This document shows positions 38,531 to 43,508 of a DNA stretch of 64,000 nucleotides, in pieces; position 1 is the stretch's first letter, and the number at the start of each line of letters is the position of its first letter. This DNA is from Quadrisphaera sp. RL12-1S (GTDB taxonomy: Bacteria > Actinomycetota > Actinomycetes > Actinomycetales > Quadrisphaeraceae): contig NZ_JACNME010000002.1 of assembly GCF_014270065.1 (NCBI RefSeq), positions 1 through 64,000 of the forward strand, read 5' to 3'. The position numbers and the translations under genes were made by a program. The notes beneath the pieces are model-generated. The model did not search any database and was not told where the DNA came from. It was given only the letters and a program-made list of their open reading frames with translations.

Positions 38531-40045
38531 TCAGCGGGTGGGGGTCGCGCCGCCCACCACGAGCGCCTCGCCCACACCGTGCCCGGTGAGCCAGGCGGTG
38601 GTCGCGGTGCCCCAGCCGCTGGGGCGGACCAGCAGCACCACCTGGCCGGCGGCGCCGGAGACCAGCGCGTCGGCCAGGCGCGCGTCGTCACCGGAGGCCA
38701 CCAGCACGCGCTTCGTGGCGACGCCCCGGGCCACCGCGTGGTCGGCCACGGCGGCGGCGGTGCCGTAGCGGTCGTTCCCGGCGAGCCGCTCGTCGGCGCC
38801 GAGGGCCGTGGCCACGTCGGCGGGCACCGAGGTGGTCCCGCCGACCACCACCACGGTGCGCCCGCTGGTCGCGGCCGCCAGGGCCGTGGTCACGTCCGCG
38901 GCGCGCGGCGGGGCCAGCAGCACGGGCGCGCCGAGAGCCGCGGCGGTGCCGCCCACCGCCACGGCGTCGGCCAGCGACCCGCTGCCGCGCGCCACGTACG
39001 CCACCGAGCTGCCGGCGAGCTCCGGCCGGGCGGCCACGGCCAGGGCCGTGCCGTAGCGGTCGGCGCCGGCCACGCGGGTCACGGTCAGCCCGAGCGCCTG
39101 CAGGTCCGCCACCACGGCCGGGGAGACGCTGGCCTCCCCGCCGACCACCACCACCGAGCGGATGGACGGCGTGGCCCGCAGCAGGTCCGCCGCGGCCGGT
39201 GACAGCCCACCGGTGGTGGTGAGCAGCAGGGGGCCGCCGAGCTTCCGGGCCAGCGGCGCCGCCGGCACGCTGTCCACCAGCTTCTCCCCGGACACGACCA
39301 CCGCGGTCGTCGGCGCGCTGGCCACCTCCGCGGCCAGAGCGGCGCCGGTGCGGTAGCGGTCCTCGCCCTTGACCACCCGCGTGGGCACCGCCGGAGCCGG
39401 CGTCGCCGCAGGGGAGGACGAGGGGGAGGAGGACGGGGACGACGACGGCGTGGCGGTGCCCGCCCACGGGCCGGCGTAGTAGTCGCCGAAGACCACGGTG
39501 CCCCACATGCGGCCGGCGCGGTCGTAGGAGATGCCGTAGCCGACCGTGTCGAAGGCGCCGTTGTCGATGTTGGCGCGGTGGCCGGCGGAGTCCATCCACA
39601 TCTGCTGCATCTGCGGGCCCGAGCCGGAGTTGTAGGCGATGTTCTCCGCGGCGCCGCGCCACCCCCCGGGCATCGTCCTGGTGTAGTCGTAGGCGGGCTC
39701 AGCGGGGGAGTGGACCAGCGCGGAGCTGCCCGCACCGCCGTCGGCCTTGGCGGCCATCCGGTCCGACCACTTCTGCGCCACCGCGTCCAGCGCCGCGTCG
39801 CGGTGCAGGGCGTCCAGGCCCTTCGCAGTGCGCTCGGCGTCGGTGCCCTGCTGGATCGCGGCGATGGCCGCCTTCTGGGCCGGTGCCTGCGCAGCGCTGA
39901 CGTCCGCCAGCACCGCCGAGTGCGCGGGCGGCGCGGACAGGACGGCCCCTGCGGCCACGGCGCACAGCGCACCGGCCAGCACCACCACCGTCAGGCGCGT
40001 GGACCGGGGCCGGGGGTCCGACGGGGGCTCGGGGAAGACCTGCAC
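38531..40045 (-). CDS. secreted CAP/SCP-domain protein with cell wall-binding type 2 repeats
   Basis: 504 aa from the GTG at 40045. A signal peptide (STRLTVVVLAGALCAVAAGAVLSAPPAHSA) is followed by a CAP domain with HRDAALDAVAQKWSDRMAA, GWRGAAENIAYNS and MWMDSAGHRANI, the bacterial SCP/YkwD pattern. A Pro/Ser linker leads to three cell wall-binding repeats, each with a DRYGTA/DRYRTG motif and VVVVGG. It should sit outside the cell on the wall. TAGGTT ends 7 nt before the GTG, giving a leaderless start. A second protein built from the same repeats is at 55463. Confidence 0.9.
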   Translation of the reverse strand: MQVFPEPPSDPRPRSTRLTVVVLAGALCAVAAGAVLSAPPAHSAVLADVSAAQAPAQKAAIAAIQQGTDAERTAKGLDALHRDAALDAVAQKWSDRMAAKADGGAGSSALVHSPAEPAYDYTRTMPGGWRGAAENIAYNSGSGPQMQQMWMDSAGHRANIDNGAFDTVGYGISYDRAGRMWGTVVFGDYYAGPWAGTATPSSSPSSSPSSSPAATPAPAVPTRVVKGEDRYRTGAALAAEVASAPTTAVVVSGEKLVDSVPAAPLARKLGGPLLLTTTGGLSPAAADLLRATPSIRSVVVVGGEASVSPAVVADLQALGLTVTRVAGADRYGTALAVAARPELAGSSVAYVARGSGSLADAVAVGGTAAALGAPVLLAPPRAADVTTALAAATSGRTVVVVGGTTSVPADVATALGADERLAGNDRYGTAAAVADHAVARGVATKRVLVASGDDARLADALVSGAAGQVVLLVRPSGWGTATTAWLTGHGVGEALVVGGATPTR

Positions 40046-40052
40046 GTGCCGG

Positions 40053-40058
40053 AACCTA
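40053..40058 (-). promoter_or_regulatory. putative -10 element of the CAP-protein gene (leaderless)
   Basis: TAGGTT on the minus strand, 7 nt before the GTG at 40045, with no Shine-Dalgarno sequence between. Confidence 0.35.
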
Positions 40059-40131
40059 GGCCCGGCGGGGCCGCCCCGGGAGGCTTTTGGGATCACCGGC
40101 GGCCGCGGCCCGCCGTGGCGCGCCGTGACGC

Positions 40132-40161
40132 GCAGTGAGGGGAGGCGCAGTGAGGGGAGGC
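40132..40161. repeat. two tandem 15-bp repeats in the intergenic region
   Basis: GCAGTGAGGGGAGGC occurs twice without change, followed by a third start (GCAG). It lies upstream of both the CAP-protein gene (minus) and the MhuD-like gene (plus). Function unknown. Confidence 0.8.
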
Positions 40162-40240
40162 GCAGATCCGCTCCCCGGCCGGAGGGCCCCGGGCGACCGG
40201 GGCGATGATCGGACCCCCGCTCGCGCCAGGAGGTCCGCCC

Positions 40241-40549
40241 GTGTCCGTCGTCATCATCAACGCCCTCGACGTCCCCGACGGCGCCGGTCCCGAGGTGGAG
40301 CGGCGCTTCGCCGCGCGCCGGCACGCCGTGGACGGCGCCGAGGGCTTCGAGGGCTTCCAGCTGCTGCGCCCGGTGGCCGGGGAGAGCCGGTACTTCGTGG
40401 TGACGCAGTGGGCCAGCCGCGAGGCCTTCGAGGCCTGGCGCGACGGCAGCGCCCGGGTGGCCCACAGCGACGGCGACGGCGGACCCGCCCCGCGCCGCCC
40501 GGTGGCCACCGGCTCGGCGCTGCTGGAGTTCGAGGTGGTGGACCTGTGA
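40241..40549 (+). CDS. MhuD-like haem-degrading monooxygenase
   Basis: 102 aa of the antibiotic biosynthesis monooxygenase fold. The start at GTG 40241 (GGAGG 7-8 bases before) gives VSVVIINALDVPDGAGPEV, matching the mycobacterial MhuD N-terminus. The three residues essential in MhuD/IsdG enzymes fall at the same numbers: Asn7, Trp66 (in AFEAW) and His75 (in RVAHS). FQLLRPVAGESRYFVVTQW is also conserved. These enzymes open haem to release iron. No haem uptake gene is adjacent; the enzyme may serve general haem turnover. Confidence 0.9.
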   Translation: MSVVIINALDVPDGAGPEVERRFAARRHAVDGAEGFEGFQLLRPVAGESRYFVVTQWASREAFEAWRDGSARVAHSDGDGGPAPRRPVATGSALLEFEVVDL

Positions 40550-40671
40550 CGGGCCCGATCGGGCGAGAGCGCGCCACAGCTTGTTCAGCCTGGTCAAGGT
40601 GAGGTGAGAACGCGTCGATGCACCCTCACCGGTCGAGCGCTCGGGCGGTCAGCACCACGTTCGGAGCCGTC

Positions 40672-43056
40672 ATGACCGCCGTCGAGCCGCACGCAGACCT
40701 GGTCGGCCTGCTCGCAGACCACTCCTCAGACGTCGAGGGCGACCCCCGTGACGGCGGGGACGAGCTGCGGCGCCTGCTGCGCGAGCAGCGGCTGGTCAGC
40801 TGGTTCCAGCCGATCGTGGACCTGTCCACCGGGGCCGTCGTCGCGCACGAGGCCCTGGTGCGCGGTCCCCTCGACTCCCCGCTGCACCTGCCGGACGCCC
40901 TGTTCGGCACGGCCCGCCGCCACGGCCTGCTCTCCGAGCTGGACGCCGCCTGCCGCGCCGCCGCCTTCCGCGGCGCCGCGGTGCACGGCCTGGTGGAGCC
41001 GCTGTCGCTGTTCGTCAACGTGGAGCCGGAGGTGCTCGACAGCGCCCCGCTCGACGTGCTCCTGGAGATCGCCGCCAGCGCCCCCGGCCACCTGCGGGTG
41101 GTGGTGGAGCTGACCGAGCGGGCCCTCGCCAAGCGCCCGGCGGAGCTGCTGCGCACCGTGGAGCGGGTCCGCGAGGCCGGGTGGGCGGTGGCCCTGGACG
41201 ACGTCGGTGCCGAGGAGCTCTCGCTGGCGTTCATGCCGCTGCTGCGCCCCGACGTGGTGAAGCTGGACCTGCGCCTCGTGCAGGACGCGCCCGGCCCCGA
41301 CGTCGCGCAGGTGATGAACGCCGTCAACGCCTACGCCGAGGACAGCGGCGCCCTGGTGCTGGCCGAGGGCATCGAGCACGCCGACCACCTGCGCCTGGCG
41401 CAGGCGCTCGGCGCCGGGCTGGGCCAGGGCTGGCTCTTCGGCCGGCCCCAGGCGGTGCCCGCCGACCACCCGCCCACCGGGTCCCTGCAGCTGCCGCGCC
41501 GCGGCACGGGCGCCGGTCCGGACCCGCTGACCTCCAGCCCGTTCGCCCTCCTGCCCGAGGGCGTGGAGCTGCGTCGCGCGCCCAAGAAGCTGCTCGTGGA
41601 GCTCAGCAAGCAGCTGGAGCGGGAGGCGCTGCGCCAGGGAAGCACCTGCGTGGTGGCCTCCACCTTCCAGGAGGCGCGGCACTTCACGCCCGCCACCACC
41701 GGCCGCTACCGCGACCTCGCCGAGCGCACCGCCTTCGTGTGCGCCCTCGGGGAGGACCTGCCCGCCGAGCCGATGCCCGGCGTGCGCGGCGCCACCCTGT
41801 CCGCGGACGACCCGGTGCGCGGGGAGTGGGACGTGGTGGTGATCGCCCCGCACTTCGCCGCGGCGCTCCTGGCCCGCGACCTCGGCGACGACGGACCCGA
41901 CCCGGCCCGCCGCTTCGAGTACGCCCTCACCTACGAGCGCTCCACCGTGGCCGCCGCCGGGCGAGCGCTGCTCGCGCGGGTGGCGGCCCAGGACGAGGCG
42001 CGGCCCGTCGTCGTCCCCCAGCAGGCGGTGGTGCCGGCGGCCGAGGTGGGCGGCTCCCGCCGCGCCTCGCGCCCGGCGAGGCCGGGGGACGTCCCGAGCG
42101 GCCCCACCGGCAGCGGCGTCCTGGGCGGCGAGGTGACCGACGCGCTGCTGCGCCGTGCGCTGGCCGCCTCCACCAGCGGCGTCTGCATCGCCGAGCTGCG
42201 CCGCCCCGACCAGCCGCTGGTGTACGTCAACCCCGCCTTCGAGCGGCTGAGCGGCCTGCCCGCCGAGCAGGTGCTCGGCCGCAACTGCCGCTTCCTGCAG
42301 GGCCCGGAGACCGACCCGGGGGTGGTCGCCTCCATCCGCTCGGCCATCCGCGCCGGCCGCGAGTGGACCGGCGTGGTCCTCAACCACCGCGGCGCCGACC
42401 GCGAGCCGTGGTGGAACGAGATCCACCTGTCTCCGGTGCGCGACGACGACGGCGTGCTCGCGCAGTACATCGGCGTGCAGACCGACGTCACCGAGCACGT
42501 CCTCGCCCAGCGCGAGCTGGCCGCCGAGCGCGACCGCAGCGCCGCGCACCTGGCGCGCATCGAGCAGCTGGCGTTCACCGACCCGCTCACGGGCCTAGAC
42601 AACCGCCGCCGCTTCGAGACGCGCCTGGAGACCGCCCTGTGGGACGCCCGCGCCGGGGGCAGCGCGCTGGCGGTGGTGCTGCTGGACCTGGACGGGTTCA
42701 AGGCCGTCAACGACACCCACGGCCACGCCGCCGGTGACGAGCTGCTGGTGGCCCTGGCCGCCCGGCTGCGCCGGCGCCTGCGCCGCGCGGACCTGGTCTG
42801 CCGCCTCGGCGGGGACGAGTTCCTGCTGGCCCTGCCCGGTCTGGACCCGGTGGTCGCCGCCGAGCAGGTGGCCGCGGTGGTGGCCCAGGTCTGCCAGGAC
42901 GTCACCGAGCCGGTGCCCACAGGCTTCGGCGAGGTCGCCGTGGGCGTCAGCGCCGGGGTGGCGCTGCACCCGGCCGACGGTGACGCCGTCACCGCCCTCG
43001 TGCACGTGGCCGACCAGCGGATGTTCGCCCAGAAGCGGGCCCACCGCCGCCGCTGA
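40672..43056 (+). CDS. EAL-DICT-LOV-GGDEF cyclic-di-GMP photoreceptor enzyme
   Basis: 794 aa. The EAL domain (about 35-270) keeps the catalytic set: Glu60 in EALVRG, FVNVEP, VELTER, ALDDVGAE, VKLDLRLV, LAEGIEH and GQGW, so phosphodiesterase activity is likely. A DICT sensory domain follows (about 300-450; ELSKQLEREALRQGSTCVV). The PAS domain is of LOV type: GRNCRFLQ with the reactive Cys539, plus the flavin-contacting Asn in LNHRG and WWNEI and Gln in GVQTDVTE. The GGDEF domain (about 620-790) has DPLTGLDNR, DLDGFKAVNDTHGH, intact GGDEF at 713-717 and an RRAD I-site. Blue light probably controls cyclic-di-GMP. An upstream ATG at 40618 is possible. Confidence 0.93.
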   Translation: MTAVEPHADLVGLLADHSSDVEGDPRDGGDELRRLLREQRLVSWFQPIVDLSTGAVVAHEALVRGPLDSPLHLPDALFGTARRHGLLSELDAACRAAAFRGAAVHGLVEPLSLFVNVEPEVLDSAPLDVLLEIAASAPGHLRVVVELTERALAKRPAELLRTVERVREAGWAVALDDVGAEELSLAFMPLLRPDVVKLDLRLVQDAPGPDVAQVMNAVNAYAEDSGALVLAEGIEHADHLRLAQALGAGLGQGWLFGRPQAVPADHPPTGSLQLPRRGTGAGPDPLTSSPFALLPEGVELRRAPKKLLVELSKQLEREALRQGSTCVVASTFQEARHFTPATTGRYRDLAERTAFVCALGEDLPAEPMPGVRGATLSADDPVRGEWDVVVIAPHFAAALLARDLGDDGPDPARRFEYALTYERSTVAAAGRALLARVAAQDEARPVVVPQQAVVPAAEVGGSRRASRPARPGDVPSGPTGSGVLGGEVTDALLRRALAASTSGVCIAELRRPDQPLVYVNPAFERLSGLPAEQVLGRNCRFLQGPETDPGVVASIRSAIRAGREWTGVVLNHRGADREPWWNEIHLSPVRDDDGVLAQYIGVQTDVTEHVLAQRELAAERDRSAAHLARIEQLAFTDPLTGLDNRRRFETRLETALWDARAGGSALAVVLLDLDGFKAVNDTHGHAAGDELLVALAARLRRRLRRADLVCRLGGDEFLLALPGLDPVVAAEQVAAVVAQVCQDVTEPVPTGFGEVAVGVSAGVALHPADGDAVTALVHVADQRMFAQKRAHRRR

Positions 43057-43064
43057 CCGGCGGG

Positions 43065-43508
43065 TCAGGGTGCTGCGGTGGCGCCCCGGTCGAGGGCCTC
43101 GGTGGCGCGCCGCAGGAAGGCGAGCACCACCTCCCGCTCGTCGGGAGGCAGCTCGCGGCTGACCGCGTCGAGGCCGGCGATGGGGGCCGACCACGCGGCG
43201 TCGTTCGCCGCGCGGGCGCCCTCGTCGAGGACGACGAGCGTGCGCCGGCGGTCGGTGGGGTGCGGGTGCCGGTGCACATGGCCGGCGGCGGCGAGCCGGT
43301 CCACCAGCACCGTGGCCGAGGCGGTGCGGATGCCGAGCCGCTCGGACAGGTCAGCCACCCCCAGCGGGCCGTGGTTCCCGAGCAGGTAGAGCGCGGTGAC
43401 GTCGGTGGTGCCCAGGCCCTGCTGCCGCGAGACCCGCGCCAGCAGCTCGCGGCTGGCGTCGGTGAAGGCCTGCAGGGCCCGCGTCACGTCGTCCGGCTCG
43501 AAGTGCAC
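43065..43508 (-). CDS. MarR-family transcriptional regulator
   Basis: 147 aa. The winged helix is seen in TTDVTALYLLGNHGPLGVADLSERLGIRTASATVLVDRLAAAGHVHRHPHPTDRRRTLVVL, where DRR is the wing. MarR proteins bind palindromes as dimers and leave DNA when a phenolic or drug-like ligand binds. It starts at GTG 43508, directly beside a 35-bp palindrome shared with the divergent flavin monooxygenase gene, so it probably represses both. Confidence 0.94.
   Translation of the reverse strand: MHFEPDDVTRALQAFTDASRELLARVSRQQGLGTTDVTALYLLGNHGPLGVADLSERLGIRTASATVLVDRLAAAGHVHRHPHPTDRRRTLVVLDEGARAANDAAWSAPIAGLDAVSRELPPDEREVVLAFLRRATEALDRGATAAP

Follow-up and report, generated by a model that had tools for sequence, protein, structure and literature searches.

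Proteins that join a LOV domain to GGDEF or EAL domains form a well-known class, and in the part of one census drawn on here about 18% of bacterial LOV proteins carry GGDEF or GGDEF together with EAL (PMC4844311). Among the closest described systems are the LadC proteins. A portion of the LadC paper (PMC10396304) describes LOV-activated diguanylate cyclases in two clusters, one with a 35-residue and the other with a 21-residue linker, reports light activation of all four proteins tested (about 15-fold for the short linker and more than 10,000-fold for the long linker) and gives a linker of 21 residues for the LOV-GGDEF-EAL pieces tested earlier. A section of a review (PMC8846402) describes SL2 of Synechococcus elongatus as a LOV-GGDEF-EAL protein with light-activated hydrolysis and counts DICT as one of the domains that have no discernible purpose. 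In extracts from two further papers, a role for DICT in the light response figures only as a prediction (PMC8612252), and in a DICT-HD-GYP protein of Microcystis DICT is the neighbour of a domain of the cyclic-di-GMP phosphodiesterase type (PMC7063779).

The gene described here lies on the forward strand of a 64,000-nucleotide window, the whole stretch of Quadrisphaera sp. RL12-1S DNA that was analysed, and encodes EAL, DICT, LOV and GGDEF domains in that order. Like MsLadC (8C05), the protein has LOV followed by GGDEF, a 35-residue linker, the LOV flavin residues and both GGDEF and RxxD motifs; however, the 321-residue MsLadC chain ends upstream of LOV, where the Quadrisphaera protein has EAL-DICT and a tether. 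It shares LOV, GGDEF and EAL in one chain with SL2 and other LOV-GGDEF-EAL proteins, but its EAL domain is at the opposite end, DICT is added and the linker has 35 residues rather than 21. As in the Microcystis protein, DICT adjoins a phosphodiesterase-type domain, which here is EAL instead of HD-GYP, and the pair is fused to what is, judged by its sequence, a real LOV photoreceptor domain. Actinobacterial proteins with only EAL and DICT have the same core (34–66% identity) without LOV or GGDEF. In the open-licence papers searched we found no description of this variant, in which a long-linker LadC carries EAL-DICT and one clade is putatively rewired. The long-linker switch has been published for proteobacterial LadC proteins that consist of the LOV-GGDEF part only; here it would be actinobacterial and fused to its putative chemical opponent. 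This makes it testable whether one chain raises the messenger in response to light and lowers it in response to another signal, and what DICT senses. As a tightly switched module that comes in natural variants, it may also be of use for optogenetics.

Domain order and the protein family

The gene is an open frame of 794 amino acids plus stop. With an in-frame ATG at 40618 the protein would be 18 residues longer (812 in total), which leaves the start codon uncertain. In the predicted structure residues 1–25 have pLDDT values below 50. Profile search gives Pfam matches to EAL (31–259, 139 bits), DICT (PF10069; 303–403, 47.2 bits against a curated cut-off of 23.8), PAS_9 (510–608, 65.4 bits) and GGDEF (634–793, 138.6 bits), each above its curated cut-off and in the order that the first-pass annotation had proposed for this single chain. 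A promoter and terminator scan of 40400–43300 found none, and none was expected. The features, all on the + strand, are as follows.

40672–43056, +: EAL-DICT-LOV-GGDEF gene, whole
40762–41448, +: EAL domain (residues 31–259), Pfam PF00563, catalytic and metal-binding residues retained
41197–41223, +: EAL loop 6, DDVGAEELS (176–184), from alignment to solved EAL domains and family counts
41536–41982, +: DICT domain, family-conserved extent 289–437 (Pfam match 303–403), from Pfam and family conservation
41983–42138, +: DICT-LOV tether (438–489), disordered and of variable length, from pLDDT and the spread of length and identity
42139–42489, +: LOV domain (490–606), from Pfam, PDB and NCBIfam matches and residues
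42286–42288, +: codon of Cys539, the predicted flavin-adduct cysteine, Cys in 88 of 88 rows
42484–42588, +: LOV-GGDEF linker, 35 residues from Asp605 (DVT) to Leu639 (DxLT), counted as in the LadC paper (PMC10396304)
42571–43050, +: GGDEF domain (634–793) with GGDEF motif at 713–717, from Pfam and residues
42781–42792, +: I-site RRAD (704–707), RxxD in 83 of 88 rows

The same annotation had remarked on the reversed order, with EAL N-terminal and GGDEF C-terminal. The order holds, but it is the rule of a family and not peculiar to this protein. A scan of GTDB genomes with patterns taken from the query gave 127 pattern matches and 88 confirmed places; the best 80 of the 88 represent 78 loci, with hosts in Geodermatophilaceae, Kineosporiaceae, Cellulomonas, Nocardioides and their kin. 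The alignment of 88 rows includes the query and comprises 86 distinct sequences (L043/L082 and L062/L088 are identical pairs). A set of 79 proteins used below consists of its 83 rows of span 35 minus L018, whose frame breaks before GGDEF, and the partial L103, L077 and L051. Of 394 genomes sampled evenly across the class, 22 match at E ≤ 1e-60; the match covers EAL-DICT-LOV-GGDEF or LOV-GGDEF in 11 of these and EAL-DICT only in the other 11 (counted by hand). The nearest relatives of the protein are from Quadrisphaera: all six genomes of this genus in a sample of 19 relatives match, five extending to at least residue 785 and one (G558) ending at 640. By sequence, then, the EAL-DICT-LOV-GGDEF order is that of a conserved actinobacterial family, and because it is common to many relatives we regard it as a putative light switch that the family has conserved rather than as an accidental combination.

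Some members of the collection stand apart. L187 (G533 C5) is an EAL-LOV-GGDEF protein with a linker of 21; the stretch scanned gives no Pfam match to DICT, so the EAL-first order also occurs without this domain. L018, L077 and L087 are homologues with a broken frame. L001, at 89% identity, is labelled Streptomyces sp. NP160 and groups with Quadrisphaera in the tree, and its organism name looks wrong.

The LOV-GGDEF module

Because a PAS_9 label does not by itself tell LOV from haem PAS, residues and matches in PDB and NCBIfam are the basis of the LOV call. The full signature claimed at first pass is present, with GRNCRFLQ at 536–543 containing Cys539, and with Asn571, Asn582 and Gln603; these four residues and Asn538 are kept in all 88 aligned rows. 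At E ≤ 0.001 the 124-residue LOV segment finds 150 distinct PDB sequences (best E 1.6e-33, well beyond chance expectation), and of the best matches (9vf7, 6hmj and 6rhg) the first two are titled LOV structures. Among the 60 of the 150 matches listed, those with names are proteins of the LOV or flavin-photoreceptor kind (including phototropins, aureochromes and blue-light kinases), and the others are unnamed sensors or kinases. Among the NCBIfam matches are YtvA and a family of LOV histidine kinases, both scoring below their full-length cut-offs, as expected where only one domain is in common. The PAS domain is thus a LOV domain by sequence, with flavin binding predicted. We reject haem PAS identity on the flavin-contact residues and the LOV-type matches.

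The family hosts are, to our knowledge, not phototrophs, which might favour a LOV domain that serves as a flavin redox sensor or some other non-light sensor. RmcA of Pseudomonas aeruginosa offers a precedent, since part of a review links its LOV-like domain with effects of light as well as of phenazine redox (PMC8846402). The adduct cysteine, however, is absent from the RmcA domain and kept in every one of the 88 rows here, as is the active-site Gln, and we regard a non-light sensor as very improbable.

The GGDEF domain has the metal-binding Asp (D672), GGDEF at 713–717 and RRAD at 704–707, five residues upstream, a spacing we take to be that of an I-site; the earlier claim of catalytic residues together with an I-site therefore stands. 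A GGDEF-type motif occurs in 76 of 88 rows (GGDEF in 71, SGDEF in 2, and AGDEF, GGEEF and GGDEL in 1 each), the GGDEL being that of L001, the closest relative, and an RxxD I-site in 83 of 88.

The linker from the Asp of D(I/V)(T/S) to the Leu of DxLT is 35 residues long in 82 of 88 rows. Five rows have 21, and L018, the remaining row, leaves frame before GGDEF. By sequence these two lengths are those of the two published LadC classes. In the query's own genome, all five of the other PAS-GGDEF linkers with a readable motif have 21 residues, and in a wider set nine of ten non-LOV linkers have 21 and one has 35. Since the controls are mostly 21, a linker of 35 is not the default length, although it is not exclusive to LOV. 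With its 35-residue linker and intact GGDEF motif the Quadrisphaera protein fits the long-linker LadC class, and light activation is predicted.

Comparison with solved structures points to the same class. When LOV-GGDEF is searched against PDB sequences, 8C05 (MsLadC) is the sole match at E ≤ 1e-40 (E 7.4e-46), and its linker aligns gap-free. The same entry ranks first in a fold search with the full model (E 2.5e-22), with a local overlay (TM to target 0.44, rmsd 23.9), such as a difference between the caged form in the crystal and the stretched model would produce. In the predicted structure, a single chain without FMN (mean pLDDT 80.4, pTM 0.54), one continuous helix at 607–634 joins LOV to GGDEF. 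Linker position 15 is Glu in 79 of 79 proteins and maps by alignment to Glu132 of MsLadC, a destabilising linker residue according to the portion of the LadC paper cited above (PMC10396304). The a* Asn/Asn/Lys of the MsLadC linker are absent, the query having Gln, Arg and Leu at the positions aligned with them, and the published caging residues thus appear to be matched only in part.

The EAL-DICT module and its tether

The query has all nine EAL residues whose roles in metal binding, substrate binding and catalysis are known from RocR and related work (E60, N116, E146, E149, D176, D177, K197, E232 and Q252). No row with a letter at the site (84–86 rows) departs from them, and they are also kept in seven of seven LOV-less paralogues and, depending on the site, in 15–17 of the 17 EAL-DICT-only rows. 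For this comparison of paralogues the LG35, G and solo columns were used and four partial rows were skipped; the 17 solo rows include L067 and L074, judged to be cut by contig ends. Loop 6 is different. It reads DDVGAEELS in the query against DDFGTGYSS or DDFGTGFSS in the aligned solved EAL domains, and the family as a whole departs from the canonical DDFG(T/A)GYSS with the form DDVGA(D/E)xxS, in which Val takes the place of Phe in all 86 rows that have a letter there and Asp or Glu that of the second loop Gly in 85 of 86.

This loop is held to be required for EAL activity in the part of the literature cited here (PMC5845226). The first-pass annotation was right that the catalytic residues are kept, in the query and throughout the family, but phosphodiesterase activity is less sure than it implied, and because of the atypical loop we do not class the EAL domain as a proven phosphodiesterase. 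On sequence grounds the chance that it is an active enzyme appears better than even. The same loop is what favours a different reading, in which the EAL domain would be a cyclic-di-GMP-binding effector or a weak enzyme and the whole protein a light-activated cyclase that carries its own product sensor. We consider this rather unlikely, since an effector need not keep all nine residues and here they are all kept, also in the paralogues and, depending on the site, in most or all of the EAL-DICT-only rows.

DICT is as well conserved as EAL, with a mean pairwise identity of 0.77 for each among members with an active GGDEF site. Its model has a mean pLDDT of 82.9, and Foldseek against the PDB gives nothing at E ≤ 0.001. 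The top ten rows are the TrmB sugar-binding domain 2f5t (E 1.4e-3), phospholipases D, polyphosphate kinases, Zucchini and SauUSI, all of which we take to belong to the phospholipase-D superfamily, with rows 11–13 outside it. Against PDB sequences the best E for DICT is 0.082, a profile search gives weak and partial TrmB matches only, hhalign against one TrmB-family match and then against three TrmB-like proteins gave nothing, and a search of open-licence papers for the TrmB and phospholipase-D link found none. The model thus gives a weak hint, and a hint only, of a phospholipase-D-like fold.

EAL-DICT also occurs by itself, in 15 open reading frames of 436–513 amino acids without LOV-GGDEF, none cut by a contig end, and is therefore a stand-alone module. 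Between DICT and LOV the predicted structure is disordered (pLDDT below 50 at 442–467 and 469–489). Across the 79 proteins the distance between fixed points on either side of this tether ranges from 37 to 68 residues, with 20 different lengths, and mean identity in the tether is 0.21, whereas the LOV-GGDEF spacing takes one value in 79 of 79.

Because the LOV-GGDEF connection is rigid and of fixed spacing and the EAL-DICT tether is loose, we suggest that the cyclase is the first target of light, with EAL-DICT answering to a signal of its own. The protein is probably a dimeric blue-light receptor of two modules, a light-activated LOV-GGDEF of the long-linker LadC type and a tethered EAL unit governed by DICT. 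In the dark the GGDEF domains would be held back. Blue light would lead to a flavin-Cys539 adduct and a rearrangement of the LOV dimer, the 35-residue linker would become a coiled coil, and the GGDEF domains of the two chains would pair and make cyclic-di-GMP, with feedback on synthesis through the RRAD I-site. EAL-DICT, on its flexible tether of about 50 residues, would be a phosphodiesterase-type unit ruled by the signal of DICT and would set the baseline that light-driven synthesis has to overcome. That light shifts the balance between making and breaking cyclic-di-GMP, as was first suggested, is a reasonable inference; light-activated synthesis with a semi-independent EAL-DICT is the simplest prediction.

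The Blastococcus clade and genomic setting

One group of relatives argues against the simple version in which light turns on a cyclase. In ten Blastococcus rows (nine distinct: L042, L047, L048, L053, L041, L043, L045, L054 and L058) GGDEF is replaced by TRDSF, ARDSF, SHDSF or GRDAF and the metal-binding Asp672 by Ala or Ser, while the LOV and EAL residues are intact in all and the RxxD I-site is kept in ten of ten. Mean identity within this group, one identical pair included, is 0.91 for EAL, 0.92 for DICT, 0.87 for LOV and 0.68 for GGDEF. In a quick tree of EAL-DICT regions (107 of 109 rows, identical ones removed; its 11 LG35deg rows are the nine Blastococcus proteins plus L018 and L040) the nine form one clade with support 100, and seven LOV-less EAL-DICT-GGDEF proteins of Blastococcus form another with support 98; many deep joins are weak or have long branches. 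The LOV-less proteins are also without a GGDEF motif, and five of them share a locus with a LOV form (L022, L024, L037, L061 and L066, each a second open reading frame about 8–9 kb into the locus), the other two being L073 and L075.

Since LOV is kept in the nine proteins after loss of the GGDEF site, light would have to be used there for something besides synthesis, and most simply it may control EAL or cyclic-di-GMP binding. How a photoreceptor keeps its job once its enzyme is dead is a question that this clade poses. Extended to the whole family, it raises the possibility that light mainly controls EAL, as light-activated breakdown of the SL2 kind, with GGDEF regulatory or GTP-sensing, and the conservation of the EAL residues fits this as well. 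Nevertheless we think it unlikely, because EAL-DICT is joined to LOV through the disordered, variable tether, the LOV-GGDEF spacing is fixed at the LadC length, most members have an intact GGDEF motif and EAL loop 6 is atypical. For the Quadrisphaera protein we prefer a light-activated cyclase with a separately governed EAL-DICT unit. A more speculative version, which we offer tentatively and with considerable doubt, casts the proteins as two-input balancers of cyclic-di-GMP, in which light would run the LadC-type LOV cyclase and DICT, perhaps ligand-binding and phospholipase-D-like, would set the tethered EAL. The Blastococcus clade would then be rewired, light gating a pseudo-cyclase that has kept its I-site, senses cyclic-di-GMP and controls EAL, so that a light-ON synthesiser would have become a light-controlled degrader or receptor.

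The surroundings of the gene differ among the homologous loci. Matches to nine neighbouring genes are mostly confined to the close, Quadrisphaera-like loci L001, L002, L003 and L018, so there is no conserved neighbourhood from which to read function. The adjoining gene, at 38531–40597 on the − strand, appears by eye to encode a secreted CAP-type protein with cell-wall-binding repeats, and similar genes are found only in close loci. The query's own genome has 54 GGDEF, 31 EAL, two PilZ, two flagellin-N and one DICT match; motility is a possible target, and nothing links it to the EAL-DICT-LOV-GGDEF gene. There are four LOV-like matches at E ≤ 1e-6 in this genome, among them L142. L143 and L144 (on C4 and C11) are further LOV proteins with GRNCRFL, and their C-terminal parts look by eye like SpoIIE-type phosphatases.
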